DNA of 64,000 bases. Source: Paraniabella hibiscisoli (GTDB taxonomy: Bacteria; Bacteroidota; Bacteroidia; Chitinophagales; Chitinophagaceae). The notes under the pieces were generated by a model that saw only the letters and a program-made list of their open reading frames with translations, was not told the origin of the DNA and did no database searches. The DNA is taken from contig NZ_JAKWBK010000001.1 of assembly GCF_022512515.1 (NCBI RefSeq), forward strand, positions 4,402,001 through 4,466,000. Reading direction: 5' to 3'. Shown here in pieces: positions 2,996-23,074 of the stretch. The position numbers and the translations under genes are program-made. Within the stretch, counting starts at the first letter, position 1; each line of letters begins with the position of its first letter.

Positions 2996-2998
2996 GTG

Positions 2999-5029
2999 AT
3001 GAAAAAAATGATACAGATGAAAAAGGAATTTAAATTATTGGTAGCGGGTATAGTTTGCAGCGCTGCTGTAAACGCACAGAACGCATTGGTAAACACTTCG
3101 CAAAGCAAATTTGCAAAGTTGTCTGGTGTGGGATTAGGTGATGTGCATTGGACAAAAGGATTTTGGGCTGAGCGTTTTGATGTATTAAAGAATTCAATGG
3201 TGCCTACTTTATGGCGTACCTATACCAGCGATACCATTTGTTATTCTTTCCAGAATTTCAAAGTGGCCGCTGGTTTACAGGATGGTCGTTTCAGAGGCCC
3301 TTCCTTTCATGATGGTGATTTCTATAAAACACTGGAAGCAGTGGCCTCATTATATGCTTCTACCAAAGACCCGAAACTGAATGGTTGGATGGAAGACGCT
3401 ATTACAGTAATCGGCAAAGCTCAGAGAGCTGATGGATATATCTATACCAAAAACATCATTGAACAAAAGAAAACCGGCGAGCAAAAAATGTTCGATGATA
3501 AGCTAAGCTTTGAAGCTTATAATTTTGGTCACCTGATGACAGCCGGATGTGTACATTACAGGGCTACCGGTAAAAGTAACCTGCTGGATATAGCAAAAAA
3601 GCATCAGACTTCCTGATCGTCTTTTATAATAAAGCTACGCCCGAGCAGGCACGCAATGCCATCTGCCCTTCTCACTATATGGGCTTGGCGGAAATGTATC
3701 GTACCACCAAAAAAAAAATACCTCGATCTGCTGAATAAACTGATCGATATAAGAGGTACTGTTGAAGGTACAGATGACAACAGTGACCGTGCTCCCTTCA
3801 GGGATATGAAAAGAATTGTGGGACACGCGGTGAGAGCCAATTACCTGATGGCTGGAGTAGCAGACCTGTATGCTGAACAAGGCGATAAAACTTTATTGAA
3901 TACCCTGGATACTTTATGGAATAATGTGATCCATACTAAAATGTATGTAACGGGCGCTTGTGGCGCTTTATACGATGGTGTTTCGGTGGATGGAACTTCC
4001 TATATTCCTGATACCGTTCAAAAAGTGCATCAGTCTTATGGACGGGATTATCAACTGCCTAATTTCAGCGCGCACAATGAAACCTGCGCCAATATCGGGA
4101 ATGTGTTGTGGAATTATCGCATGTTTCTTTTAACAGGAGAAGAAAAGTATTTTGATATTGTGGAGCTGGCTCTCTACAATAGTGTATTAAGTGGCATCAG
4201 CATGGATGGTACCAGGTTCTTTTATACAAACCCATTAGCGCATACGGTAAACTACCCTTATCATCTGCGTTGGGAGGGTGGCCGTGTACCTTACATCAGC
4301 AAGTCAAATTGTTGTCCTCCGAATGTCGTGCGCACCATCGCTCAGATCAGCAATTACATGTACAGTACGGGTAAAGATGGTTTGTATATAAATATGTATG
4401 GGGGCAATAACCTTCAAACCGTATTAAACGATGGTAGTAAGATCGCTTTACAACAAACCAGTAATTATCCCTGGGATGGGGCTGTGTCATTGGCAATAAC
4501 TGAAGCTCCCGCCAAGCCATTGCCGGTTCATCTGCGTATTCCCGGTTGGTGTAACAAAGCTTCGGTTAAAGTAAATGGCAAGCTTGTTAATGCGAACCTT
4601 ACAGGTGGACGATATTTTACCTTAAACCAGGCATGGAAAAAGGGAGATAAAATCGAACTGGTGCTGGATATGCCAGCTACTCTGATCGAATCTAATCCGA
4701 TGGTAGAAGAAACCCGTAACCAGGTAGCAGTGAAAAGAGGTCCGGTAGTGTATTGTATAGAATCAACGGATATCCCTGCTCAGAAAGTTTTCAATATAGC
4801 GATACCATCCAATATACAACTGAAACCAGTACCTACCACTATAGCCAATGGTAACATGATGGCACTTACGGGTGAAGCCAGGCTTTTAAATAATGGCGAC
4901 TGGACAAGGAACCTGTATAAGGAAGTCAGCAAAAAACAAACACCGGTAAATGTTAAGTTAATACCTTACTATGCCTGGGCCAACCGCGGTGAAACCGATA
5001 TGAGCGTTTGGATGCCATTAGTAAGATAA
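2999..5029 (+). CDS. GH127 (DUF1680) beta-L-arabinofuranosidase-type hydrolase, frameshifted
   Basis: This is a retaining hydrolase whose nucleophile is a zinc-bound cysteine. Characterised GH127 members act on beta-L-arabinofuranosides, and one Bacteroides member acts on aceric acid in rhamnogalacturonan II. Seen: a signal peptide (SAAVNAQ) after ATG 2999, the Glu-x-Cys ligand pair in HNETCANIG, and the double Cys in SNCCPPNVV. These match the Zn ligands and catalytic Cys known for HypBA1. The frame shifts near 3600 and returns at an A10 run (3709-3718). The segment between reads DFLIVFYNKATPEQARNAI in the alternative frame, so the gene is probably intact in the organism. The total is about 676 residues, near the family norm. 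It is co-directional with GH78 and the sugar-acid operon. Confidence 0.85.
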
Positions 5030-5039
5030 AAGTTTCAAA

Positions 5040-5756
5040 ATGAGAATGCTGACCATCATTTGTTTATTAATAGTAGCTTCGACCACTGTTGATGGTCAGA
5101 CACCTTTAAATGGCAGGCCTTACAAAAGGCTGGAGCCCGGAAATAAAGCTCCTTTTAATTATCGTATGATTGTGGACCTTCCATATGTTATTGATTTCTC
5201 GGTAGACAGTAATCAACAAACGGATGTTGGAAAGCGATATGACAGCATTTTAGCTGAAGATCCAAAACTAGATAGGAATTTTGATTTTAGGTTTCAATTA
5301 AAACAGTATCATCTCCAGGCGAATTTCGATAATGTGTTTGTACTGACCTTAAAGGACAACAAATGGAAGGCGCAATATTTTACTATGGATGTTAAACCGA
5401 CAGCTGATAACGAAAGCCTCAATATTAAATTTATCGAACAATTGGAAATAGAACAATCCGGAGTAGATCAATTGTGGGAGCTGCTGGTTCAAAACAACCT
5501 GTTGAACTTACCCAGTCAGCTCAACATTAGGGAGAAAATGGTAGAGTATGTCATCGACAACACTGATTTTCAGATTAGCCAGAAAAGTATGTATATAGGA
5601 GACGGTGTTTTATACGAATTTGATCTTCAAAAATATGGAAAACAAAGGCATTATCAGTATGGAGAACCTTTTACGTATTTTAAAAAATATCTGCATATCA
5701 AAGAGTTAGCATATGCTGTAGTAAATATTTCATTGGTGCGAAAATTTTTAAAATAG
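5040..5756 (+). CDS. Hypothetical secreted protein
   Basis: This is an uninterrupted 238-residue reading frame starting 10 nt after the GH127 stop. A clear signal peptide (MRMLTIICLLIVASTTVDGQ) precedes a mainly polar mature chain rich in Asp, Asn, Lys and aromatic residues, with no further membrane helix. I do not recognise the family. A tract of alternating hydrophobic residues (FNYRMIVDLPYVIDFSV, and later FDNVFVLTL) suggests beta structure. Its place between a GH127 hydrolase and the RuBisCO-like protein suggests co-expression with the polysaccharide locus, but no function can be assigned. Confidence 0.7.
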   Translation: MRMLTIICLLIVASTTVDGQTPLNGRPYKRLEPGNKAPFNYRMIVDLPYVIDFSVDSNQQTDVGKRYDSILAEDPKLDRNFDFRFQLKQYHLQANFDNVFVLTLKDNKWKAQYFTMDVKPTADNESLNIKFIEQLEIEQSGVDQLWELLVQNNLLNLPSQLNIREKMVEYVIDNTDFQISQKSMYIGDGVLYEFDLQKYGKQRHYQYGEPFTYFKKYLHIKELAYAVVNISLVRKFLK

Positions 5757-5788: not shown

Positions 5789-7032
5789 ATGGAAAGAATT
5801 TTTGGAACCTACTATATAGAAACGCCTTATGATCCTGAAAAAGCAGCGGCCGTATTGGCTGGGGAGCAATCTTCCGGAACTTTTGTTGCAGTGCCGGGAG
5901 AAACAGAAGAGCTGAAGGAGCGATTTGCGGCAAGGGTAGAGCAGGTGGAACTGTTGGAGACTGTTGATCTTTCGGCCATTCCCGGTGCTGTTAGTGATAC
6001 CGGTAAGTACCATAGAGCGAAAGTTAAAGTGTCCTGGAGTATTGAAAACTTCGGCCACAACCTGCCTGTAATGGTGTCCACTTTGCAGGGTAACCTGTAT
6101 GAAATTACACAGTTTACCGGGTTGAAATTAATGGACATAGAATTGCCCCCTTCTTTTGGCCAACAGTTCAAAGGACCGGAGTTTGGGATAGCAGGTTGCA
6201 GGCAACTAACCGGCGTAGTAGAGCGGCCGTTGATCGGTACCATCATCAAGCCCTCTATTGGCCTTACTGTTGAGGATACGGCTGCTATGGTTCAAACACT
6301 GGCAGAAGCCGGAATAGATTTTATAAAAGATGATGAACTCTTATCTTCCTCAGCTAATTCCCGTTTTGAGGACAGGGTTGCCGGTATCATGGAGGTGATT
6401 AATAACCATGCTGACAAAACAGGTAAAAAAATAATGTATGCTTTTAACCTGAGCGGCGAGATTGATGAAATGTTATCGCGCTATGAAACAATCGTTCTAC
6501 ATGGCGGTACATGTGCAATGATCAGTATTAATAGTGTGGGCTTAAGCGCTGTTAAAAAATATGCGACCAACGCCAGTTGGCTATACATGCGCACAGAAAT
6601 GGATGGGGCATGCTTACAAGGCATCCTTTGCTGGGCATCGATTTCAGGGCGTATCAAAAAATATGGAGATTAGCAGGCGTGGATCAACTGCATGTAAATG
6701 GAATAAAGAATAAATTCTGGGAAACAGATGATAGTGTGGTGAATTCGATTGAAGCCTGTTTAACGCCCTTATTCGATCACAATAATGTTATCCCGGTTGT
6801 TTCGTCGGGCCAATGGGGAGGACAAGCTTTTGAGACCTGGAAGCGTACACAAACCCAGGATTTATTGTATATGGCCGGTGGAGGTATTATGGCTCATCCG
6901 ATGGGACCCGCTGCCGGCGTAATTGCGTTGCAACAGGCCTGGACGGCTGCTGTGGAAGGACTGACATTGGAAGAAGCTGCCACTGCCTACCCTGAATTTG
7001 CAAAGAGTGTAGAGAAATTTGGTAAAAAATAA
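5789..7032 (+). CDS. RuBisCO-like protein (form IV), probable sugar-acid-phosphate decarboxylase, frameshifted
   Basis: This is a cytoplasmic RuBisCO large-subunit homologue of about 414 residues. Seen: IIKPSIGL with Lys154 (the Lys175 equivalent of true RuBisCO), and DFIKDDE with Lys180, Asp182 and Glu183 (the carbamate/Mg site Lys201, Asp203, Glu204). After the frame break near 6560 come HAHRNGWGMLTRHPLLG, the second His in DQLHVNG, VVSSGQWGG and AGGGIMAHPMGPAAG. The second Lys of the usual KPK motif is Ser156, so CO2-fixing activity is not expected. Known family: RLPs next to DUF1537 kinases include 3-oxo-isoapionate-4-phosphate decarboxylase (OiaX) and a related transcarboxylase/hydrolase (OiaT). 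The kinase gene follows after 1 nt, which supports such a role. Which of the two reactions it performs is inference. Confidence 0.82.
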
Positions 7033-7033
7033 T

Positions 7034-8350
7034 ATGTCGGTTCTATCTCAAATACAATTGGCTTTTTATGGGGATGACTTCACAGGCTCTACCGATGCAC
7101 TGGAATTTGCCTGCAGAGCAGGTGCAAGGGCTGTATTATTTATAGAGCCACCTGACGCTTCTGTATTGGCCAGGTTCCCTGGTATCGATGTAATTGGAGT
7201 AGCTGGTAAAACAAGATCGCTGGATCCTGCTGAAATGGAGGAAGTATTAACCGAAGCTTTTGGAAAATTAAAAGACTTCCATCCAAGGCATATACATTAT
7301 AAAGTATGTTCCACATTTGATTCTTCGCCTTCCGTTGGAAGTATTGGTCGCGTAATGGATGTTGGAAGCCAGGTTTTTTCAAGCCCGTTAATACCGGTTT
7401 TAGGTGGAACACCCTCTTTAGGCCGGTATTGCGTATTTGGAAACCTGTTTGCAAGAATGGGTATTGGCAGTAACGGTGCTATCTATCGCTTAGACCGGCA
7501 TCCGTCCATGACGAAACATCCTGTTACACCGGCTGATGAGAGCGACCTTCGTTTACATATACAAAAGCAAACCATCAAACGGCTGGCACTGATCGATATG
7601 GTTCAAATGCAAAAGCCGGTAACAGAATGGCATCATGCAATACAAGGAGAAGAAGCTGTATTAATTGATGCTGCTGAGGAGCAGCAGTTGGGAAAAATAG
7701 GTGAATGGCTGGATGCACAGGTTATTGATAACACACCTCTGTTTTCGATAGGGTCTTCAGCGGTCGAAGTGGCTTTAGGTACCGTATGGAATAAAAGAGA
7801 GAACATAGAGTCTGCTCAAAAATGGTCTGAGCCGGGAAAGGCAACACCCTTATTGGTGGTTTCAGGAAGCTGTTCACCCGTAACCGCCGTCCAGATCAAT
7901 TGGGCCATAGAAAATGGATTTGAAGCGATTGTATTAGATGCCGCAACCGTTTGTAATGATGGGGTTTCTGCGTCAATCCAAGAAAAAATAAATGATATAT
8001 TGAAGAGCAGGAAAAATGTACTGGTGCATACCGGATCAAAAGATGGAGCTAACCTGTCCTCGCAAAAATTAGGAACTGCCTTAGGTAGAATGGCGAGGGA
8101 GGCCGTAGAAGAATCTAAGATTAAGCGGGTAGTCATTGCTGGCGGCGATACCAGCAGCTATGCTGCAAGAGCTATGCAAATTGAAGCTGTGGAAATGATT
8201 GCACCATTGGTGGCAGGAGCGCCTTTATGCAAAGCCTATTCAGTCAACCCGGCTATAAACGGACTTGAAGTAAACTTTAAAGGCGGACAAGTAGGTGCGG
8301 CTGACTATTTTGGTGTGTTGAGAGACGGAAGAATGATGAATAATGAATAG
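7034..8350 (+). CDS. Four-carbon acid sugar kinase family protein (DUF1537), possible 3-oxo-isoapionate kinase
   Basis: This is an ATP-dependent kinase for a sugar acid or ketonic acid, acting in the cytoplasm. I chose ATG 7034 (one base after the RLP stop) because the N-terminal motif FYGDDFTGSTDALEF should lie close to the start. This is the substrate-side signature of DUF1537 kinases. The C-terminal nucleotide-binding half shows VVSGSCSPVTAVQ, then VVIAGGDTSSYAA and VNPAINGLEVNFKGGQVG. The length of 438 residues is normal and there is no frame break. In apionate pathways the DUF1537 kinase OiaK supplies the phosphorylated substrate for the adjacent RLP, so the pairing suggests the same order here. 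Other DUF1537 kinases act on erythronate, threonate or tagaturonate-type acids, so the substrate is not certain. Confidence 0.85.
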   Translation: MSVLSQIQLAFYGDDFTGSTDALEFACRAGARAVLFIEPPDASVLARFPGIDVIGVAGKTRSLDPAEMEEVLTEAFGKLKDFHPRHIHYKVCSTFDSSPSVGSIGRVMDVGSQVFSSPLIPVLGGTPSLGRYCVFGNLFARMGIGSNGAIYRLDRHPSMTKHPVTPADESDLRLHIQKQTIKRLALIDMVQMQKPVTEWHHAIQGEEAVLIDAAEEQQLGKIGEWLDAQVIDNTPLFSIGSSAVEVALGTVWNKRENIESAQKWSEPGKATPLLVVSGSCSPVTAVQINWAIENGFEAIVLDAATVCNDGVSASIQEKINDILKSRKNVLVHTGSKDGANLSSQKLGTALGRMAREAVEESKIKRVVIAGGDTSSYAARAMQIEAVEMIAPLVAGAPLCKAYSVNPAINGLEVNFKGGQVGAADYFGVLRDGRMMNNE

Positions 8351-8415
8351 TCAATTGTGAATGGTGAATCTTGGCATTTGAGCCAGCTACTAGCCACTCG
8401 TCAAAAAATAAAAAT
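8334..8415. repeat. Intergenic degenerate 7-bp repeats overlapping kinase 3' end
   Basis: From 8334 the sequence runs as ATGAATAATGAATAGTCAAT and GTGAATGGTGAATC, a near-copy of the words at 2911-2935. The repeat encodes the last residues of the kinase (MMNNE) and fills most of the 65-nt gap before the racemase-like gene. It also carries AGCCAGCTACTAGCCACTC. No coding function is seen. Confidence 0.4.
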
Positions 8416-9108
8416 ATGGAAAAGAATAAGAACACCTCTACTGGAGCTGGGGGTAAAACATTAGGATTAGTTCATACGTCGGCTACACTGGTACCCGTGT
8501 TTGATGAATTATGTAAGAAATATTTGCCAGGTGTAAAAGTGTTTAATATTGTAGATGATAGTCTCATTAAAAATACTATAGCCTGCGGCGAATTAACACC
8601 ACAAACTTCCAAGCGCGTGGTAAACTATGCAAATTCCGCAGAAGAGGCCGGCGCTGACTATATCATGTTTACCTGCTCTTCTATTGGTGCCGCAGTTGAA
8701 ACAGCGGCAACCTTAGCCGGAGTTCCTGTGTTACGTGTAGATCAGCCAATGGCAGACAAAGCGGTTGCTTCCGGAAAGAGAATAGGTGTAGTGGCTACCT
8801 TATCTACAACATTAGAACCCACAAGCGACCTGGTAAGACGGCGGGCTATAGTTGCCGGTAAAAACATAGAGCTCGTATCCCGGCTTTGCGAAGGTGCTTT
8901 TGAAGCATTAATGGGCGGCGACGCGCAAAAGCATGACGATATCGTGGGAGCTGCGTTAAAACAACTGGCTCAGGAAGTAGATGTCATTCTTTTGGCCCAG
9001 GCCTCTATGGCTCGTGTGGTGGGTAGCTTATCTGAAGAAGATAGGAAAGTACCGATATTGGCCAGCCCGCCTTTGGCTATGGAGTATTTAGCAGAAGTAT
9101 TAAAATAA
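8416..9108 (+). CDS. Aspartate/glutamate/hydantoin racemase-family protein
   Basis: This is a 230-residue protein of the two-cysteine racemase/isomerase fold. ATG 8416 is preferred over an in-frame start upstream because the intervening sequence is repeat-like. The two catalytic-type Cys are in FTCSSIG and RLCEGAF, and the first strand motif LGLVHTSATLVPVF is family-typical. Members racemise amino acids or hydantoins, isomerise maleate, or decarboxylate arylmalonates. Its place between the DUF1537 kinase (65 nt upstream) and a BASS transporter (17 nt downstream) argues for a step in the same sugar-acid pathway, not amino-acid racemisation. I know of no described apionate pathway using this family. 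The assignment to the family is firm; the reaction is unknown. Confidence 0.82.
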   Translation: MEKNKNTSTGAGGKTLGLVHTSATLVPVFDELCKKYLPGVKVFNIVDDSLIKNTIACGELTPQTSKRVVNYANSAEEAGADYIMFTCSSIGAAVETAATLAGVPVLRVDQPMADKAVASGKRIGVVATLSTTLEPTSDLVRRRAIVAGKNIELVSRLCEGAFEALMGGDAQKHDDIVGAALKQLAQEVDVILLAQASMARVVGSLSEEDRKVPILASPPLAMEYLAEVLK

Positions 9109-9125
9109 ACCAAACGATTGCTGCC

Positions 9126-10427
9126 ATGATTAAATTATATCGAATCGGTTTATGGATTTTCATTGTTGCTGCTGCCGGGCTACTTATTGCCTTGTTGCTA
9201 CAGCAAACAGACCTTAGCAAAATACTCTCGGTAATTGCTGCGGTTTCATTGGCATTAGGCCTGGGCTCGGTGCCAGGGCTCAAAGGCTATCAATACACAG
9301 CCTGGATCATTGCCGCGGTGGTGGCCGGGATGGTTTATCCGCAAGCTTTTATGCACTGGGGACCGGTGAACCTGAGAGATAAGACCCTAATATTGGTCAT
9401 TATACAATTGGTGATGTTTGGAATGGGCACACATATGAGCCTGAGAGATTTTAAAGGCTTGGCAAGTACAGGCAAAGGTGTGGCAGTAGGGCTATTATGC
9501 CACTTTTCGGTAATGCCTTTAATGGGTTTACTCCTTACTAAAGTCTTTCATTTTGAACCGGAGATTGCTGCAGGTATCATATTGATTGGTAGCTGTAGCA
9601 GCGGCCTGGCTTCCAATGTAATGGTATACCTGGCAAGAGCCAACCTGGTGTTGTCGGTAATTGTAACAGCTATGGCCACATTGGCAGCGCCTTTTTTAAC
9701 ACCGTTATTGATGAAAACTTTCGCTGGCACATTAATAGAAGTGAAGTTCGTGGATATGATGATCGAGATCATTAAGATCGTTATCGTACCGATCGGTGCG
9801 GCTTTATTGCACGATTATCTGAAAGGTGCCGGTAAAGCAAGAGCTAAGGGCATCGCTGTATTTTCTGTTATTGGTGCGTTGTATGCGCTGGCAGTTTTAT
9901 TTTGGATATATCCGGTTGTAGCAGCGGGCGGTGCATCACATGCGGTTTTGCAATCTCTGGAATTATCAGGTTTCCTGGCGGGTGCAGTTGTGGCGGGCAC
10001 ATTATATCACCAGCTGTATAAAGCCTATCCGAAAATAGATCAACTAATGCCTTTCATCTCGATGTTTGGTATTATCTACTTCACTACTGTTACAACAGCG
10101 GCGGGTAGAGACAACCTGATGAAAGTTGGGTTCTTATTATTCATTGCCTCAGTCATCCATAATGCAGCGGGTTATTTCTTCGGCTATTGGTTGAGTCGGT
10201 TCTTCGGATTGGACAAAAATTCCAGTCGTACTGTAGCCTTTGAGGTTGGATTACAAAACGGAGGTATGGCTAGCGGTTTGGCCGGATCGATGGGTAAACT
10301 GGGTACCGTAGGACTTGCAGCTGCCGTGTTTAGTCCGTGGATGAATATCAGCGGTAGTATACTGGCTAATTACTGGAGGAAGAGACCTGTTGAGCCTTCG
10401 AAGGAAAAAGAGGCAGGGGGATTGTAG
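9126..10427 (+). CDS. Bile acid:sodium symporter (BASS/SBF) family transporter
   Basis: This is an inner-membrane transporter of 433 residues with about ten hydrophobic helices. Seen: FGMGTHMSLRDFKGL and the crossover-type motif GSCSSGLASNVMVYLARAN, followed later by FEVGLQNGGMASGLA; both are typical of Na+-coupled BASS carriers. BASS proteins move organic anions such as bile acids, pyruvate, pantoate or keto-acids. Here it is the last gene of the RLP-kinase-racemase operon, which suggests uptake of the sugar-acid substrate or a related carboxylate. The frame is intact. The C-terminus ends in a charged tail (WRKRPVEPSKEKEAGG). Confidence 0.85.
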   Translation: MIKLYRIGLWIFIVAAAGLLIALLLQQTDLSKILSVIAAVSLALGLGSVPGLKGYQYTAWIIAAVVAGMVYPQAFMHWGPVNLRDKTLILVIIQLVMFGMGTHMSLRDFKGLASTGKGVAVGLLCHFSVMPLMGLLLTKVFHFEPEIAAGIILIGSCSSGLASNVMVYLARANLVLSVIVTAMATLAAPFLTPLLMKTFAGTLIEVKFVDMMIEIIKIVIVPIGAALLHDYLKGAGKARAKGIAVFSVIGALYALAVLFWIYPVVAAGGASHAVLQSLELSGFLAGAVVAGTLYHQLYKAYPKIDQLMPFISMFGIIYFTTVTTAAGRDNLMKVGFLLFIASVIHNAAGYFFGYWLSRFFGLDKNSSRTVAFEVGLQNGGMASGLAGSMGKLGTVGLAAAVFSPWMNISGSILANYWRKRPVEPSKEKEAGGL

Positions 10428-10630: not shown

Positions 10631-13895
<3,265 letters not shown>

Positions 13896-13971: not shown

Positions 13972-16900
13972 ATGGTTAGATTTACAAAGATCATAGGTTT
14001 TGCGATTGCTTTTTCTTAATTAGTTGGACCGCGGGCGCTCAAACAAAAACGGGCGGCTCCCTGGAAGATGTTTTTAAAAATCCACCTGAGTCTGCCCGGC
14101 CCTGGGTACTTTGGTATTGGATGCATGGCGCTGTTTCAAAGGAAGGAATTACAGCAGACCTGGAAGGAATACAAAAGAATGGCATTGGCGGCGTATACCT
14201 GGCTTGCATTTATGATACAGTTGCCCGTATACCTTTCGATAAACCCGCCAGGCAATTAAGTCCTGAATGGTGGGGCATGGTTAATCATGCAATGAAAGAA
14301 TGTAAAAGACTGGGACTGAAAATGGCCTTTCATGTAAGTGATGGTTTTGCCTTGGCCGGCGGGCCGTGGATCAAGCCCGAACAGTCTATGCAAAAACTGG
14401 TATGGACCAAAACCTATATAAAAGCGTCTGACGAAGCCGGGATACAATTAGAGCAACCCGAAACGAAAGAAGGTTTTTACAAGGATGTTGCAGTGTATGC
14501 TTACCCGGCCAATTCATCCAATGCTTTTAGTGAAACGGTAACCATCCCCTCGGTAACTACCAGTACCGGTGAAAAAGCGCCCTACCTTGCTTTCCCTGGC
14601 GATGATAGCAAAACATTCAGAAGTGATAGCTCCTGCTGGATCCAGTATAAGTATCCAAAAGCATTTACACTGCGTTCTTTGACTACGCATACAGGGGCCC
14701 GCCAATACCAGGCTCAAAGGTTGGTGGTCCAATCCAGCAATGATGGCATTGTTTTCAATACGGTAATTAAACTAACGCCTCCACGGCATGGCTGGCAAAA
14801 TGATGACGAAGATAATACCTTCTCCATTCCGCCGACCACTGCAAAGTATTTCCGTTTTGTATTTGATAAAGATGCTACCGAAGCCGGATCGGAAGACCTG
14901 GATGCCGCCAAATGGAAGCCTACCTTAAAGGTGATGGGTATTTATCTGAGCGATGAGCCCGTGATCAACCAGTACCAGGCAAAAAATGCCAGCGTATGGC
15001 GGGTGGCCGAAAATACAACCGATCAGATGGTTCCTTCGGCTGATGCAGTTCCTTTTAAAAACATCATCAACCTCTCCCATAAAATGGATAAAGAAGGTAA
15101 CCTGAAGTGGAAGCCAGCCTCCGGAGAGTGGGTAATTGTGCGTATGGGTCATACTTCAACGGGGCATACGAATGCTACAGGGGGTGCCGCCAAAGGACTT
15201 GAATGTGATAAGTTTGACCCGGCTGCGATAAAACTTCAGTTTGACAGCTGGTACGGCAAAGCCTTTGAGAAAACTGATCCGGGACTGGCTAAAGAAGTAT
15301 TAAAGATCTTTTACATTGATAGCTGGGAAGCCGGCAGCCAGAACTGGAATAAGACTTTTGCGGCTGAGTTCAAAAAAAGGAGAGGGTATGACCTGATGCC
15401 TTACCTGCTGGTGATGACAGGTACGCCCATTAATGATGCTGCTACTTCGGAAAAGATATTACACGATGTACGCGAAACCCTTGCAGAATTAGTGAATGAT
15501 GTTTTTTATGTAACGCTTCGTAAGCTGGCAGATCAGAAAAGTTTGAGCTTTACCGCTGAAAATGTAGCTCCTACTATGGTGAGCGATGGACTGTTGCATT
15601 TTAAAACCGTGGACTTTCCCACCGGTGAATTCTGGCTGAAAAGTCCCACACATGATAAACCCAATGATATGTTCGATGCCATTAGTGCCGCACATATTTA
15701 TGGAAAGAATATTGTACAGGCTGAGTCATATACCAACCTCCGGATGGAATGGAATGAACATCCGGGTAATATAAAAGTAGTAGGAGATCGCAATTTTGCC
15801 ATGGGTATGAACAAACCTATTGTACATGTAATGACACATAATCCCTGGATCGATCGTAAGCCGGGGATGACCCTGGGTAGCATTGGTTTATTTTATCAGA
15901 GAGATCAAACCTGGTTTAGCCAAAGTAAAGCCTGGGTAGAATATATGGCGCGGGTATCTGCTTTATTGCAACAGGGAAAACCAGCAGCTGATGTAGCCGT
16001 ATTTATTGGAGAGGAAGTGCCAAGACGTTCTATATTACCCGATCGTTTGGTTGGTACGTTGCCAGGGATATTTGGGAAAGAAAGAGTAGCTTCCGAAAAG
16101 TTAAGACTAGAAAATAAAGGGCAGCCTCAAAGAGTAATACCTGTTGGGGTAGGGCACTCTGCTAATATGGCAGATCCGGAAGATTGGACGGATGCCTTGA
16201 GGGGGTACAAATACGATTGTTTTAACAGGGATGTGCTGCTGAACGCTAAAGTAGCTAATGGTGAAGTAGTTTTTCCTTCAGGAGCCAGCTATAAAATATT
16301 GGTATTCCCCGGCAAAATACTGATGAATCCCAATAGCAACCTGATGTCGGCGGAAGTTGCAAAAAGATCCTGGATTTAAAGCAAGCTGGCGCTACCATCA
16401 TTATTGAAAAAGGTCGTTAAATACAATTGGTTTAAAAGAGAAGGATGCCGCACTTCAGAAATCCTGGAACCAACTATTTGTAGAATCGGACAAGGGACGT
16501 GTTATCGAAGCGCCCTACACAAAGGAAACTTTTGAAGATCTGGGCGTAACAAGGGATATAGATGCAACCGGCAGTAACCAACCCATAGCCTGGACACATA
16601 GAAAATTGGAGGGAGCAGATCTGTACTTTATTTCCAATCAGCAAAATAAGAGCGTATCTATTCCTGTTTCTTTCAGAATAACGGGTTTTGCACCTGAAAT
16701 ATGGGACCCGGCATCTGGCACCATTAAAAAAATGGAAAACTGGCATATAAAAGAGGGAAGAACCTATATTGATTTGAATTTGCATGAAAATGCATCAATG
16801 TTCTTGGTATTCAGGGAAAGAACAAGTGACCTTAGTATCATTACAACTCGTGATACGCCTCGACGCCCGAATGTACCTTTAAAGTTAAACAGTAACTGGG

Positions 16901-17352
16901 AAGTAAAATTTGATCCGGCCTTTGGCGGACCTGAAGAGAAAATTTTGTTTCCAAGACTTACCTCCTGGAGTGAACACAACAATGAAAAAGTAAAATACTA
17001 CTCTGGTATTGCAAACTATAAGAATACTTTCGTTATTGTAAATCCAGATTTTAGCACGCCATTTTATCTTACGATTGATAGCATTCACAATATTGCGTCA
17101 GTGTATATAAACGGTATCGATTGCGGTACGCTTTGGACACCTCCTTACCAACTGGATATATCCAAAGCAATTAAAACAGGAGACAATACTATTGAAATTA
17201 AAGTAAGCAATACCTGGGCCAATCGCCTGATTGGAGATATGGCACTGCCCGAAGAAAAACGGGTTACCTGGACAACCGCGCCTTTAAATTTACTACAGGG
17301 CAAACCTCTGTTAAAAGCAGGATTAGAGGGAGAAATAAAGATTTGGCAATAA
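13972..17352 (+). CDS. GH106 alpha-L-rhamnosidase-type glycoside hydrolase, frameshifted
   Basis: This is a secreted enzyme of about 1,125 residues. The signal peptide (MVRFTKIIGFAIAF) is cut by a frame break in the T-run near 14008. In the restored frame come ARPWVLWYWMHGAVSKEGI, the GH106 hallmark start of the barrel, and then FHVSDGFALAGGPWI. The C-terminus has a jelly-roll sugar-binding module (VYINGIDCGTLWTPPYQLDI, VSNTWANRLIGD). Further frame breaks lie near 16360 and 16418. Known family: GH106 members remove alpha-L-rhamnose from rhamnogalacturonan I/II and related glycans. With GH78, GH127 and GH2 upstream the context is rhamnose-rich pectin. The family call is strong; the linkage is inference. 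Confidence 0.85.
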
Positions 17353-19301: not shown

Positions 19302-21625
19302 TTAGTAGGGCGGTGGTATTTTATTCAAACTGAATAATAATGTCTTTTTTCTTTCTGCTGGTACTACTTCCAGCGAAATAACTTTTCCATTTCTTAGTGT
19401 CGCTTCCACTGTTGTTTGTTTAGGAGCATGTAGTTTAAAATGGACGTCCCAGTTTTTGGGCCACGCCGGGAACAAATAAATCCGGTCATCTACAGTTTGC
19501 ATCAGCATCTCCTGTAAGCCTATCATGCCGCTGCCGCCCCAGTTATGATCGGGCACCCAGTCAAAGCCTGGTCCCCAGAATGCGGGGAATCTCCGCTCGC
19601 TGTTTTTAAGTTTGAGACTGGTTAATCGTTGCGCTTCTTCTGTTAAACCCAGTCTTGCCGCAAATATATTGTCTTGTTTCCATCCTATATGACTACGGAA
19701 TTTCAGGGCGAAGCTGTCGTTCCAATAAGTGTTCCTCGCAGTGTCAAGGCCCGCTTGTCCTACACCATATAAGCCCCACGGATATACCGGATATAGTTGC
19801 GAAGATTCTACATTGTTTACGCGGCTCCATACAGTGGCAGGAGCGATGGTAGGCTTTTCATTAAAAGTTGAAAATGGTAGGGGAGGAATACGGCTTAACA
19901 ATCCTTCAAAATACGTACGTTCCGTTGCATTTAAGTTGGCGGCACTTGAATTTAAAAGTGTTGTTGTTACCACTTTTAATGCAGCAATGGTTGAACTGGC
20001 GTTGTAAGACATTTTAAAAGTTTCAGCACCGGACCCCGGGTAAAGGATCAGGCGCCCTTTTCCATCCAGGGCTTTATTGCTTAGTTTTTTTGCCTGGTAC
20101 TGGTAATGCTCGTCAAAAAAATCAACGCATTTTTAATAAGAGGAAGATAGGCTGTAATGTTTTTACCGGCATAAGATTCGGTTTGCAGTATCATCATACA
20201 AAACTCCAGCACTGTGTCCCATTCATATTCCAGCCAGGCATTGTATTCAACACCTGCATCAAAACCGGCTGGCCGTTTCCATCCGTATTCTGTTGGATTG
20301 GGAAAACCGAAATTTTCTATTTGTTCATTAAAATTAGCTCCGCCATGGCCCCAATAAACTTTGGTACGTAAACGGGCTGTTGGTAGCAGACGGTTATAAA
20401 AGTCAAACTGCGGTGTCATCATATCTACATCGCCGCTTCTCAACATAGGCCAGTAAACCAGTCGTTGATTTTGCGCAGTAAATGTACCGCCGCCCCAATT
20501 GCGGTGATCGGGCGTTCCTTTTATAGAAGTATCCGTCAACACCGGATCTACTGTAAATAAGCCACCGTTAAATTTGGTAGGGTATTTCCCATAGGCATTA
20601 CAGCCCAGCATATACCGGAACAACTGGTAATTACGTCCCAGCTGCCAGCTTTCGCTCTCGGTTTTTGACGGATCAATAAAAATGAAGCTTCTTTTCCAAT
20701 AGTCGTTCCACCAGTCTATTGTTTTTTTAGAATCGGCCTTATAATGCTTACTGATATTTTTGAGTTGAGTTTTCCAGTCGTCTATAGTATTGGTCTGGTC
20801 ATTATGTAAATAGATCTGTATTGACTGCTTTTTGACCGGTCGTTTACTGACAAGGCTCCAGCTTTTGAAAGCCGTATTCAGGTACTGTCCTTCGCCATTA
20901 GTACCTCTAACAAAATGATCGCCTTTGATCAGGCCCCCGCTTGTTAAACCTTCCAACGGATTGAACAACTGGCTTTTTAAGGAGTCTAATCCCTGTTGCT
21001 TTACCGTAGCATCAAATACGGTAGGCGATAGATTACGATGTGAGAATACGATTTCATCCTGGTCAAATACTACCTGGTCAGGGCGTGTAATGATGGGGAC
21101 ATGAGCAGCCCATTTCCAGGAATTAGCATTATTTTCTTTTCCTTTCTGAACACGATCGGTAAAGCGCCAGTTTTCATATACTGCCTCGGCTTTAATAGCC
21201 TTATTAGCTGAGATATCAATGTGTATTACCGGGTTAAATACATCTACCCATATCCGGAGTAAAGCATGGATGCCGTTATGCCCTGATCGTATGTCAACAT
21301 AGCCATTTTTTACAATCAGCTCCTGTTTGAAATCGGCATTATTAAAGGGGTTGGGAGAAAGCCTCAGTCTTAATCTGCCACTTTTTAAGAAGGAATTATT
21401 TTCATCAAAACTGCCGCTTTGTGAGAAATAGAGCAATAATTCATCATTTTCCACCCATACATTACAACCAATACCGCCACCACCTACGGGCATCGATTCT
21501 CCGGCATTTTTACTGGGGCCTGACCATGTAATATTGTAATCATTCAGTTGTGTTTCCTGCGCAAACGCTGCAACTGAATGCAAACATAATATCAATAACA
21601 CCCCATACCCGTATGCCTTCCTCAT
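19302..21625 (-). CDS. DUF5703 domain-containing glycoside-hydrolase-like protein, frameshifted
   Basis: This is a secreted protein of about 775 residues. A signal peptide (VLLILCLHSVAAFAQ) follows ATG 21625. The N-terminal region matches the DUF5703 style: NITWSGPSKNAGESMPVGGG, then FSQSGSFDENNSFL. An alpha-helical toroid-like region resembling GH95/GH65-type barrels follows (WWNDYWKRSFIF, QLFRYMLGCNAYG), with WGHGGANFNEQI. The C-terminal beta domain holds IYLFPAWPKNWDVHFKLHAP. The frame breaks near 20110. Members are usually annotated as hypothetical or candidate glycosidases in PULs and I know of no fixed activity. The start lies 13 nt from the end of the esterase gene, so the two are surely one operon. 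Confidence 0.75.
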
Positions 21626-21638
21626 CAATAATTATATT

Positions 21639-23074
21639 TTATTTAAGTTCTGTAACAATATCCCAGTCATCTGTTCTAAAGGACGATGCAGGGAGCCCGG
21701 CGGTATTAAATAGCTCTCCGGGTGAATCATCTTTAAAAGCATAGCGAACGGCTACCGGATTTTTTACTTCTTTGGCTGTTACTTCTACACCACCATTTAC
21801 CAGTTGTGCTGTAGCCGGGTAAAACTTCTTATCGTCACCCGCTATTTCAAATTGGGTAATGGTTTTACCATAAGAAGTAAGTCCCACCGGTGCATTTTTA
21901 AACTTCACCATAGCTTTGCCATCTTTAATGGCCATAGATTCATATAATGGACTCTCGCTCGCAAAACCTTTATAGTGGTAGGTTTTAGTCAAAGCCTGAA
22001 GTGCCAATCTTTTACCGATTTCCTGCTTTTCACGCGGATGAATGAAATCAGCATCACCTATATCCATGGTTACCGCCATACCGCTATTGGGTATTTTGTC
22101 CAGCGATTTACGTTGTGCGTCTCGCAAAAAAGCAGAATTCAGTAAAGTATCTCCTTTTTTCTTACCCCGGTTGTAGTCGAACGGGGCAATCTGTACAAAA
22201 TAAAAAGGCAGCTCTCCCTGGTTAAACTGGGTTCTCAGCATTTGCACAAATTCAGGGAATAAAGATTCATACTGCTTGGGACGGTCAGCATTTGACTCGC
22301 CCTGGTACCATATAAATCCCTTTGCACCATACCCAATCAGTGGATGTATCATGCCATTATATACAACAGTAGCAATTTTGTTATTTAACCTCGATTTGTC
22401 ATTAGGGTCCGGCAAAGCAAAATTATATCCTTTAAGCGATGCTATGTCCATGAACGACTCAACGGGGTGCCACCATAGCTCACATTGATCAAACCTATAG
22501 GAACCTTCAGTTGATCGTATAAGAATTTTCCAAAAGTATAACCGGTAGCACTAAAATTGGCTACATCCTCAGGGTTAGATATTTTCCAGCTAAAATTCTT
22601 ACTCGTGTCTAACGGTGTGGGTTGTGTTGACCTGGGAACATTATACAGCCGGATCTGGTCGTTAGTAGAATTAAAAACAATATCATTTGAATGATTAATA
22701 GGTTGATTGTTAAATCCTTTCAACGGCATTTCCATATTCGACTGCCCGCTGCAGATCCATACTTCACCGATCAAAATATTTCTAATTTTTATGATTTGTC
22801 CATCGCTAATGCTGATTTCGTAAGGTCCACCCGCCTTAGGCGTAGCTATCGCAACTTTCCATTTTCCTTTATTGTCGGGCTGAGCCGTATATTTTTTATT
22901 GTTCCAGGACGTAGTAATGGTAACCGCGTTCTTTTTGTCCGTCCATCCCCAAATAGCAGGAGTAGACTGTTGCTGAAGTACCATATTGTCACTAAAAAAC
23001 CAGGGTAATTGTAGTTTTGCCTGCGATATAAACGGCGCGGCAACTAAAAGGCAGAGTGCTGTAAAAAATTTCAT
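21639..23074 (-). CDS. Sialate O-acetylesterase-type SGNH esterase, frameshifted
   Basis: This is a secreted carbohydrate acetylesterase of about 478 residues. ATG 23074 is chosen because a signal peptide (MKFFTALCLLVAAPFISQA) follows at once; an upstream in-frame start would add an unlikely extension. Seen: DNMVLQQ, an Ig-like insert, the nucleophile block GEVWICSGQSNMEMPL, IWYQGESNADRPKQY, and the Asp-His pair in DIGDADFIHPREKQ. The frame breaks near 22450. Bacteroidota use these enzymes to deacetylate sialic acid, xylan or pectin. With the following DUF5703 gene this suggests deacetylation before glycosidic cleavage. It is divergent from an AraC regulator 230 nt away. Confidence 0.82.

Follow-up and report, generated by a model that had tools for sequence, protein, structure and literature searches.

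The subject of this analysis is a stretch of 64,000 nucleotides from Paraniabella hibiscisoli (contig NZ_JAKWBK010000001.1, positions 4,402,001 to 4,466,000; hereafter "the window"), in which four neighbouring genes encode a RuBisCO-like protein (RLP), a DUF1537 kinase, a protein with the aspartate/glutamate-racemase fold and a BASS-family transporter. With moderate confidence, we regard this four-gene cassette as the intracellular part of a catabolic pathway for aceric acid, a rare, branched acidic sugar of side chain B of rhamnogalacturonan II (RG-II). From the operon and its conservation, a separate RLP group, both linkage to and co-occurrence with an aceric acid hydrolase, and a separate apiose-type operon, we infer the substrate, each catalytic step and the direction of transport. 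The cassette genes of the window are the following:

5789–7032, + strand: RLP (Pfam RuBisCO_large (+N)), with a frameshift near 6575
7034–8350, + strand: DUF1537 kinase, OiaK-like (Pfam SBD_N/NBD_C)
8416–9108, + strand: PF01177 Asp/Glu-racemase-fold protein (Pfam Asp_Glu_race)
9126–10427, + strand: BASS-family transporter, PanS-like (Pfam SBF, PF01758)

Open reading frames (ORFs) and Pfam searches bear out the arrangement given in a preliminary description of this DNA: the four genes are co-directional, with spacings of 1, 65 and 17 nt, and Pfam likewise places GH78 and GH127 upstream of them and GH2 and GH106 downstream. The RLP of the window is read in two overlapping frames (5789–6673 and 6577–7032), owing to a one-base frameshift near 6575, and overlapping split frames also affect the GH78, GH127, GH2 and GH106 genes. 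Since the RLP is intact in 11 of the 13 other RLP-bearing genomes of the family (it is in pieces in G002 and G003), these frameshifts are likely an assembly error, with long-read indels as the probable source.

The conservation of the cassette was followed across 80 loci selected by their RLP, namely the best 80 of 559 confirmed RLP matches in named genomes, so that they lean towards close relatives. According to tblastn, the kinase is present in 76/80 of these loci, the racemase-fold gene in 75/80 and the transporter in 75/80, and ORF calling recovers the same gene order and strand in 65/80. The ORFs were called by script, and spurious opposite-strand ORFs masked the racemase-fold gene in three loci (L120, L121 and L128), where tblastn recovered it; of the loci that stay incomplete by tblastn, L056, L061, L074 and L124 lie on short contigs. 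Cassettes occur in Bacteroidota, Balneolota, Verrucomicrobiota and Planctomycetota, and at a strict threshold the RLP is found in 0/14 control genomes, Bacteroides ihuae included. The 80 genomes include incomplete metagenome-assembled genomes (MAGs), in which any absence of GH140 or of the hydrolase is a soft one, and 19/80 loci span no more than about 20 kb.

A few loci depart from this scheme. In the MAG locus L062, kinase, racemase-fold gene and transporter are all absent locally by tblastn, and in Flectobacillus (L066, 10001–14921) there is no kinase, the place between the RLP and the racemase-fold gene being taken by a BT_1020-like gene and by one belonging to a GH43-like cluster. Locus L089, titled Williamsia (Actinomycetota), bears a Chitinophagaceae-type cluster and falls together with a genome from the family of the window; it is probably a binning error. 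Upstream of the cassette in L077 (2401–9994) are genes for a CoA-transferase-like protein, a solute-binding protein, a Gfo/Idh/MocA dehydrogenase, a MaoC-like hydratase and an MFS transporter. Parts of this set, varying by locus, recur in L075, L078, L080, L092, L102, L106 and L116 (the CoA-transferase-like gene in L077 and L116), and perhaps the set, seen in Sphingobacteriaceae and Marinoscillum, serves a second sugar-acid route.

What points to aceric acid is the company of the cassette. GH127 is the ORF directly upstream of it in 28/79 loci, 27 of them on the same strand, with gaps of −24 to 200 bp. It lies within 42/80 loci, by a wide margin more than any other neighbour that was profiled or clustered; the runner-up among the glycosidase profiles is GH2 (28/80 at any score). 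These counts come from our own profile built from family members, on which 40/42 score at least 759 bits; the GH127s of L054 and L063 are truncated by contig ends, and 6/42 were also scanned with the NCBI model. On that model (NF049879, aceric acid hydrolase, cut-off 950), 7/10 scanned cassette GH127s pass with 1044–1196 bits, two from Verrucomicrobiota/Planctomycetota fall under it at 888 and 899, and so does the partial window ORF 3656–5026, with 760.3 bits over 441/657 positions. The closest solved structure to the GH127 is 5mqo, which scores 781 bits where the next structure scores 382; we take 5mqo to be BT1003. BT1003 is named an aceric acid hydrolase in the accessible text of two papers (PMC10850190, PMC5698469).

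The hydrolase accompanies the cassette even at a distance. Of the 38 genomes without a GH127 in the locus, 37 have a hydrolase elsewhere that scores at least 844 bits, of which 31 pass the cut-off and six reach 844–911 bits (Verrucomicrobiota among the latter), for a total of 79/80; the lone genome without a match, G436, has its locus on a 5.5-kb contig. As a background, a protein query finds the hydrolase at more than 700 bits in 10/295 genomes of the class, and all 4 RLP-bearing genomes are among these ten. Among the controls, the model matches in B. ihuae and Thermotoga maritima, one of the two above the cut-off. A Croceibacterium plasmid (L132, 5175–9528), with a GH127-like gene followed by an RLP and a kinase, was considered as independent support and rejected: the GH127-like protein reaches 87 bits on the hydrolase model, and the RLP falls outside the cassette group.

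The best NCBIfam matches of the RLP and the kinase are the OiaX and OiaK models of D-apionate catabolism. The two RLP pieces of the window score 280.5 and 227.2 bits on the OiaX model (NF042437), and the RLPs of 11 intact relatives score 487.8–534.2, all under the curated equivalog cut-off of 700, against 777.8 for an annotated Rhizobium OiaX run as a control. The window kinase reaches 386.3 bits on the OiaK model (NF042436, cut-off 700); since a kinase beside an annotated OiaX also stays under that cut-off, at just 471.7 bits, it was dropped as a discriminator. In an unrooted tree of 54 RLPs (35 cassette loci, the window, Rufibacter and 17 other RLPs, with MtnW left out), the cassette RLPs make up one side of a branch with support of 98/92, the OiaX sequences (4 rows, all from Rhizobium) form a separate group (100/100), and the remaining proteobacterial and haloarchaeal RLPs form a third (99/95). 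A second tree of 110 rows, two of which are one distant G106 protein, also places the cassette RLP apart from OiaX. The preliminary description had proposed a tree with OiaX references and had named a grouping with MtnW-type or other non-apionate RLPs as counting against an apionate pathway; such a grouping is seen only in part. The RLP does not group with OiaX and forms its own group; MtnW, absent from the tree, was gauged with models, on which the window pieces remain far under the cut-offs (TIGR03332: 111 and 21 bits against 513.6).

In an alignment with a type III RuBisCO judged by eye, the cassette RLP seems to retain most lysines, histidines and arginines of the active site; the second lysine of KPK has given way to another residue. 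A search for residues that separate cassette RLPs from OiaX and ApnL-linked RLPs was abandoned, as the four positions that pass the filter lend themselves to no functional reading.

The Rhizobium OiaX loci (L129, L166 and L167) hold triose-phosphate isomerase, RpiB, ABC transporter genes and a gene resembling 6-phosphogluconate dehydrogenase that is probably ApnO; triose-phosphate isomerase, RpiB, the ApnO-like gene and ApnL were found near 0/80 cassettes within the stretches of the loci seen (for ApnO, with our own profile built from the genes taken as ApnO and run on the 80 loci only). The apionate lactonase ApnL was found in 0/16 RLP-positive genomes, and a rerun with controls gave more than 1040 bits for two OiaX plasmids (W02 and W03) and matches in 0/8 genomes. 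Apionate was therefore rejected as the likeliest substrate, given the missed OiaX cut-off, the separate RLP group, the absence of ApnL from the 16 genomes and the lack of OiaX-pathway neighbours. In our hands, the earlier claim of an operon that breaks down acid sugars with an RLP and a DUF1537 kinase, and that goes with the removal of RG-II side chains, stands; of the substrates it offered, apiose or apionate is weakened by these data and "another branched sugar acid" is possibly right.

As a side observation, five further loci in Proteobacteria and haloarchaea (L131, L133, L134, L135 and L170) pair an RLP and a kinase with TRAP transporters, with pyruvate kinase or enolase near 4/5 of the pairs; they belong to an uncharacterised RLP subgroup that perhaps makes 3-phosphoglycerate.

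Apiose itself appears to be provided for elsewhere. The window lies on contig C1; GH140, which the preliminary description had noted as absent from the window and suggested seeking beyond it, is present in the same genome on another contig, C2, beside apiose-type genes:

C2, 354821–355814: GH140 apiosidase
C2, 350253–351650: FucI-like isomerase
C2, 349388–350199: split transketolase

An FGGY kinase is encoded in the same C2 stretch, along with genes grouped by clustering with those of ABC transporters, and in G004 the same apiose-type set is intact, its transporter domains confirmed. The FucI-like isomerase is found in 12/16 RLP-positive genomes, in 7 of which, the window's included, it lies about 10 kb or less from GH140, and in 0/6 genomes with an aceric acid hydrolase and without an RLP. 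GH140, the FucI-like isomerase and the split transketolase lie no more than about 10 kb apart in 7 genomes, with the FGGY kinase and the ABC genes where these were looked at. The non-oxidative D-apiose pathway, reportedly described by Carter in 2018, is said to consist of an isomerase, a kinase and a split transketolase, and the GH140-linked genes of C2 look like this known route.

How the cassette might handle aceric acid follows from the structure of the sugar, 3-C-carboxy-5-deoxy-L-xylose (so named in the accessible text of PMC5698469), an aldose whose C3 carries a carboxylate. The BT1003-type GH127 would release it from side chain B and the BASS transporter would take up the free acid. The closest NCBIfam model of the window transporter is PanS, for pantoate/ketopantoate (211.7 bits, cut-off 400); a carrier closest to one for a branched acid would fit the uptake of an acid, free apiose being neutral. 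The racemase-fold protein, or another isomerase, could then convert the aldose by C1/C2 isomerisation into the ketose HOCH2-CO-C(OH)(COO-)-CH(OH)-CH3, a beta-keto acid. Drawn from the names, this ketose is 3-oxo-isoapionate, HOCH2-CO-C(OH)(COO-)-CH2OH, plus one methyl group. The DUF1537 kinase would phosphorylate its C1 hydroxyl, leaving the RLP two options. It might act as a decarboxylase and turn the beta-keto acid into a 5-deoxypentulose 1-phosphate, to be split by an aldolase into dihydroxyacetone phosphate and acetaldehyde; or it might move the carboxylate and hydrolyse the product to 3-phosphoglycerate and lactate, which we deduce would require no further gene. Both kinds of reaction have a precedent, in that RLPs are reported to decarboxylate, or to transcarboxylate and hydrolyse, 3-oxo-isoapionate-4-phosphate, and an aldolase has been proposed to cleave 5-deoxyribulose 1-phosphate to dihydroxyacetone phosphate and acetaldehyde (both from the portions available of PMC6302742).

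An AlphaFold2 model of a homologue of the window's racemase-fold protein (L026:11819–12481) has a pLDDT of 95.7 and finds the aspartate racemase 1jfl as its top Protein Data Bank match (Z 21.2, root-mean-square deviation 2.5, 209 residues aligned). With 1jfl and the other PF01177 racemases and isomerases (hydantoin and allantoin racemases, maleate isomerase), the cassette protein shares the fold and the first catalytic cysteine motif, TCSSIG; unlike them, it has LAQASMAR, invariant in 20 rows, at the expected place of the second catalytic cysteine. The Q of this motif aligns with the C of LGCTGM in a hydantoin racemase, in a weak alignment of just 2.7 bits. Racemisation by two cysteines thus looks unlikely from the sequence, and because the second cysteine position reads LAQASMAR, a role as isomerase or epimerase is a guess. 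We know of no aldose isomerase in the PF01177 family. A bolder version of the proposal, which we hold to be improbable, makes the PF01177 protein an aldose–ketose isomerase (a new reaction for the superfamily) and the RLP a transcarboxylase/hydrolase. The four genes would then suffice for a complete pathway, as the RLP would give 3-phosphoglycerate and lactate directly, and RG-II degraders without the cassette would release aceric acid and leave it to organisms equipped with the cassette.

Several observations weigh against assigning the cassette to aceric acid. The substrate is read from gene context; one of the two catalytic cysteines is apparently missing from the racemase-fold protein, and the cassette holds no known aldose isomerase. 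The linkage to the hydrolase is incomplete too: 6/10 hydrolase-bearing genomes of the class are without an RLP, GH127 is missing from the stretch seen in 38/80 loci, the cassette of L033 stands alone, and the Croceibacterium RLP beside a GH127-like gene lends no support. GH140, for its part, accompanies the cassette in 69/80 genomes and in 16/16 of the RLP-positive set, so that co-occurrence in a genome says by itself that the organism degrades RG-II and separates the two sugars weakly. It also shares the contig of the RLP, 12–61 kb away, in 10/16 genomes (G002, G003, G008, G011, G016, G019, G020, G086, G212 and G226), so that the apiosidase and the cassette are often parts of a single, wider RG-II region. 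Close adjacency separates aceric acid from apiose better than co-occurrence does; the exceptions are G020 and G212, with the hydrolase 27 and 52 kb from the RLP and GH140 23 and 35 kb. Moreover, the FucI-like isomerase is missing from the nearly complete genomes G019 and G226, so that the argument from a separate apiose operon does not cover every genome. Finally, ApnL-like genes adjoin RLPs outside the annotated OiaX group (L138 at 312.8 bits, others by label alone), and apionate use may therefore reach beyond OiaX.

Some of these points favour D-apionate catabolism, in which apiose released by GH140 would be oxidised to apionate and on to 3-oxo-isoapionate, the substrate of the cassette kinase and RLP. 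Apiose is present in RG-II, the RLP and the kinase match the OiaX and OiaK models best, a Gfo/Idh/MocA dehydrogenase occurs in many loci, and the distribution of GH140 and the two genomes without the FucI-like isomerase agree with it. We nevertheless judge this pathway unlikely, since its RLP score and tree position, the missing ApnL, ApnO, triose-phosphate isomerase and RpiB, and the apiose-type operon at GH140 in the window's own genome all speak against it, as does the presence of GH140 in the stretch seen of just 3/80 cassettes. A general operon for scavenging branched or four-carbon acid sugars, found in RG-II loci through shared regulation and serving no single RG-II sugar, would explain the solitary cassette of L033 and would agree with the TRAP-linked RLP–kinase pairs of other bacteria and haloarchaea; DUF1537 kinases are also said to act on several acid sugars, reportedly from work by Zhang in 2016. 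It sits badly with an aceric acid hydrolase in 79/80 cassette genomes, often directly upstream, and we think it quite unlikely.

The substrate could also be another acidic sugar of RG-II, Dha or Kdo, or a breakdown product, an explanation to which we give little credence. Its support lies in 8/80 loci with genes like BT_1020, which we take to be a Dha hydrolase, yet GH127 is found near the cassette much more often (42/80 loci, against 8/80), in G004 a BT_1020-like gene sits with the apiose-type operon, and neither sugar would yield the alpha-hydroxy-beta-keto acid of known RLP chemistry. Both are acids of RG-II according to the accessible text of PMC12168206.

The genes around the cassette fit aceric acid as the substrate, and several of them are frameshifted in the window:

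714–2910, + strand: GH78 alpha-L-rhamnosidase, frameshifted (Bac_rhamnosid-like_N, Bac_rhamnosid6H)
2996–5029, + strand: GH127 of BT1003 type, two frameshifted ORFs (GH127 N part on 2996–3613; NF049879 on 3656–5026)
5040–5756, + strand: hypothetical protein of 238 aa between GH127 and RLP (Pfam: no match)
10637–13895, + strand: GH2, beta-galactosidase-like, frameshifted
14121–17352, + strand: GH106 alpha-L-rhamnosidase, frameshifted (PF17132, 450.4 bits)
20081–21628, − strand: GH139-type 2-O-methyl-fucosidase, main ORF (DUF5703_N; PDB 9hyq, 530.5 bits)
21639–22451, − strand: piece of a SASA-family carbohydrate acetylesterase (PF03629, 45.4 bits)

The stretch 19302–20012 is probably a further piece of the GH139-type gene, and the hypothetical protein at 5040–5756 has no counterpart among the related loci clustered with the window locus. 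On the 5' side of the window start, the same genome carries a GH141-type protein, a Gfo/Idh/MocA dehydrogenase and a sodium symporter (SSS); the domains of these upstream genes, with a RhaM-like C-terminal part on the GH141 protein, were read on the relative L032. The order GH141–Gfo–SSS–GH78–GH127–RLP–kinase–racemase–BASS, followed by GH2 and/or GH106, recurs in many relatives; GH137 (BT0996-type), GH141 and BT_1020-like genes occur in loci of relatives as well. Because of GH139, GH127, GH78, GH106 and GH2 in the window, together with the GH137, GH141 and BT_1020-like genes of relatives, we read the window locus as one for the degradation of RG-II chain B. The structures 9HYQ and 9HMB were deposited by the paper on GH139 (PMC12282258), whose enzyme BT0984 cleaves 2-O-methyl-fucose off chain B. 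According to PMC11739564, the GH2 enzyme BT_0993 of Bacteroides thetaiotaomicron removes galactose from galactosyl-beta-1,2-aceric acid in RG-II. The GH2 of the window is a candidate beta-galactosidase. Farther along, 36000–64000 of the window forms a second carbohydrate locus with GH3, GH5, GH30, GH9 and a SusD-like gene, probably for another polysaccharide.

Among described systems, the OiaK/OiaX (or OiaT) branch of D-apionate catabolism comes closest: an RLP followed by a DUF1537 kinase is common to both, as is, under our proposal, the chemistry of a branched alpha-hydroxy-beta-keto acid (PMC6302742, in the part available). The cassette differs from it in its own RLP group, its OiaX scores under the cut-off and the lack of ApnL, ApnO, triose-phosphate isomerase and RpiB nearby; where the OiaK/OiaX branch has an ABC transporter, the cassette has a racemase-fold protein and a BASS transporter, and it is linked to an aceric acid hydrolase. 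The OiaK/OiaX (or OiaT) branch was reportedly described by Carter in 2018. To the RG-II enzymes of B. thetaiotaomicron (BT1001–BT1003, BT0984, BT0996 and BT1020), the loci correspond in having similar chain B glycosidases, the GH127 aceric acid hydrolase included. Genes like those of the non-oxidative D-apiose pathway are found in 12/16 cassette genomes (about 10 kb or less from GH140 in 7); that pathway differs from the cassette as a separate operon with another transporter, on another contig in the window's genome. We read the cassette as a variant of the known RLP/DUF1537 pathways for branched acid sugars, turned most likely to aceric acid. The literature surveyed, thin on subscription papers and partly accessible, describes the hydrolase and yielded no route for aceric acid breakdown, nor any report that joins aceric acid with a DUF1537 or RuBisCO-like protein.

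If the proposal is true, aceric acid would be a new substrate for the RLP family, and the distribution of the cassette would suggest which organisms can or cannot finish RG-II. A four-gene candidate conserved in four phyla and coupled to an exact chemical prediction would make the catabolism of aceric acid testable.

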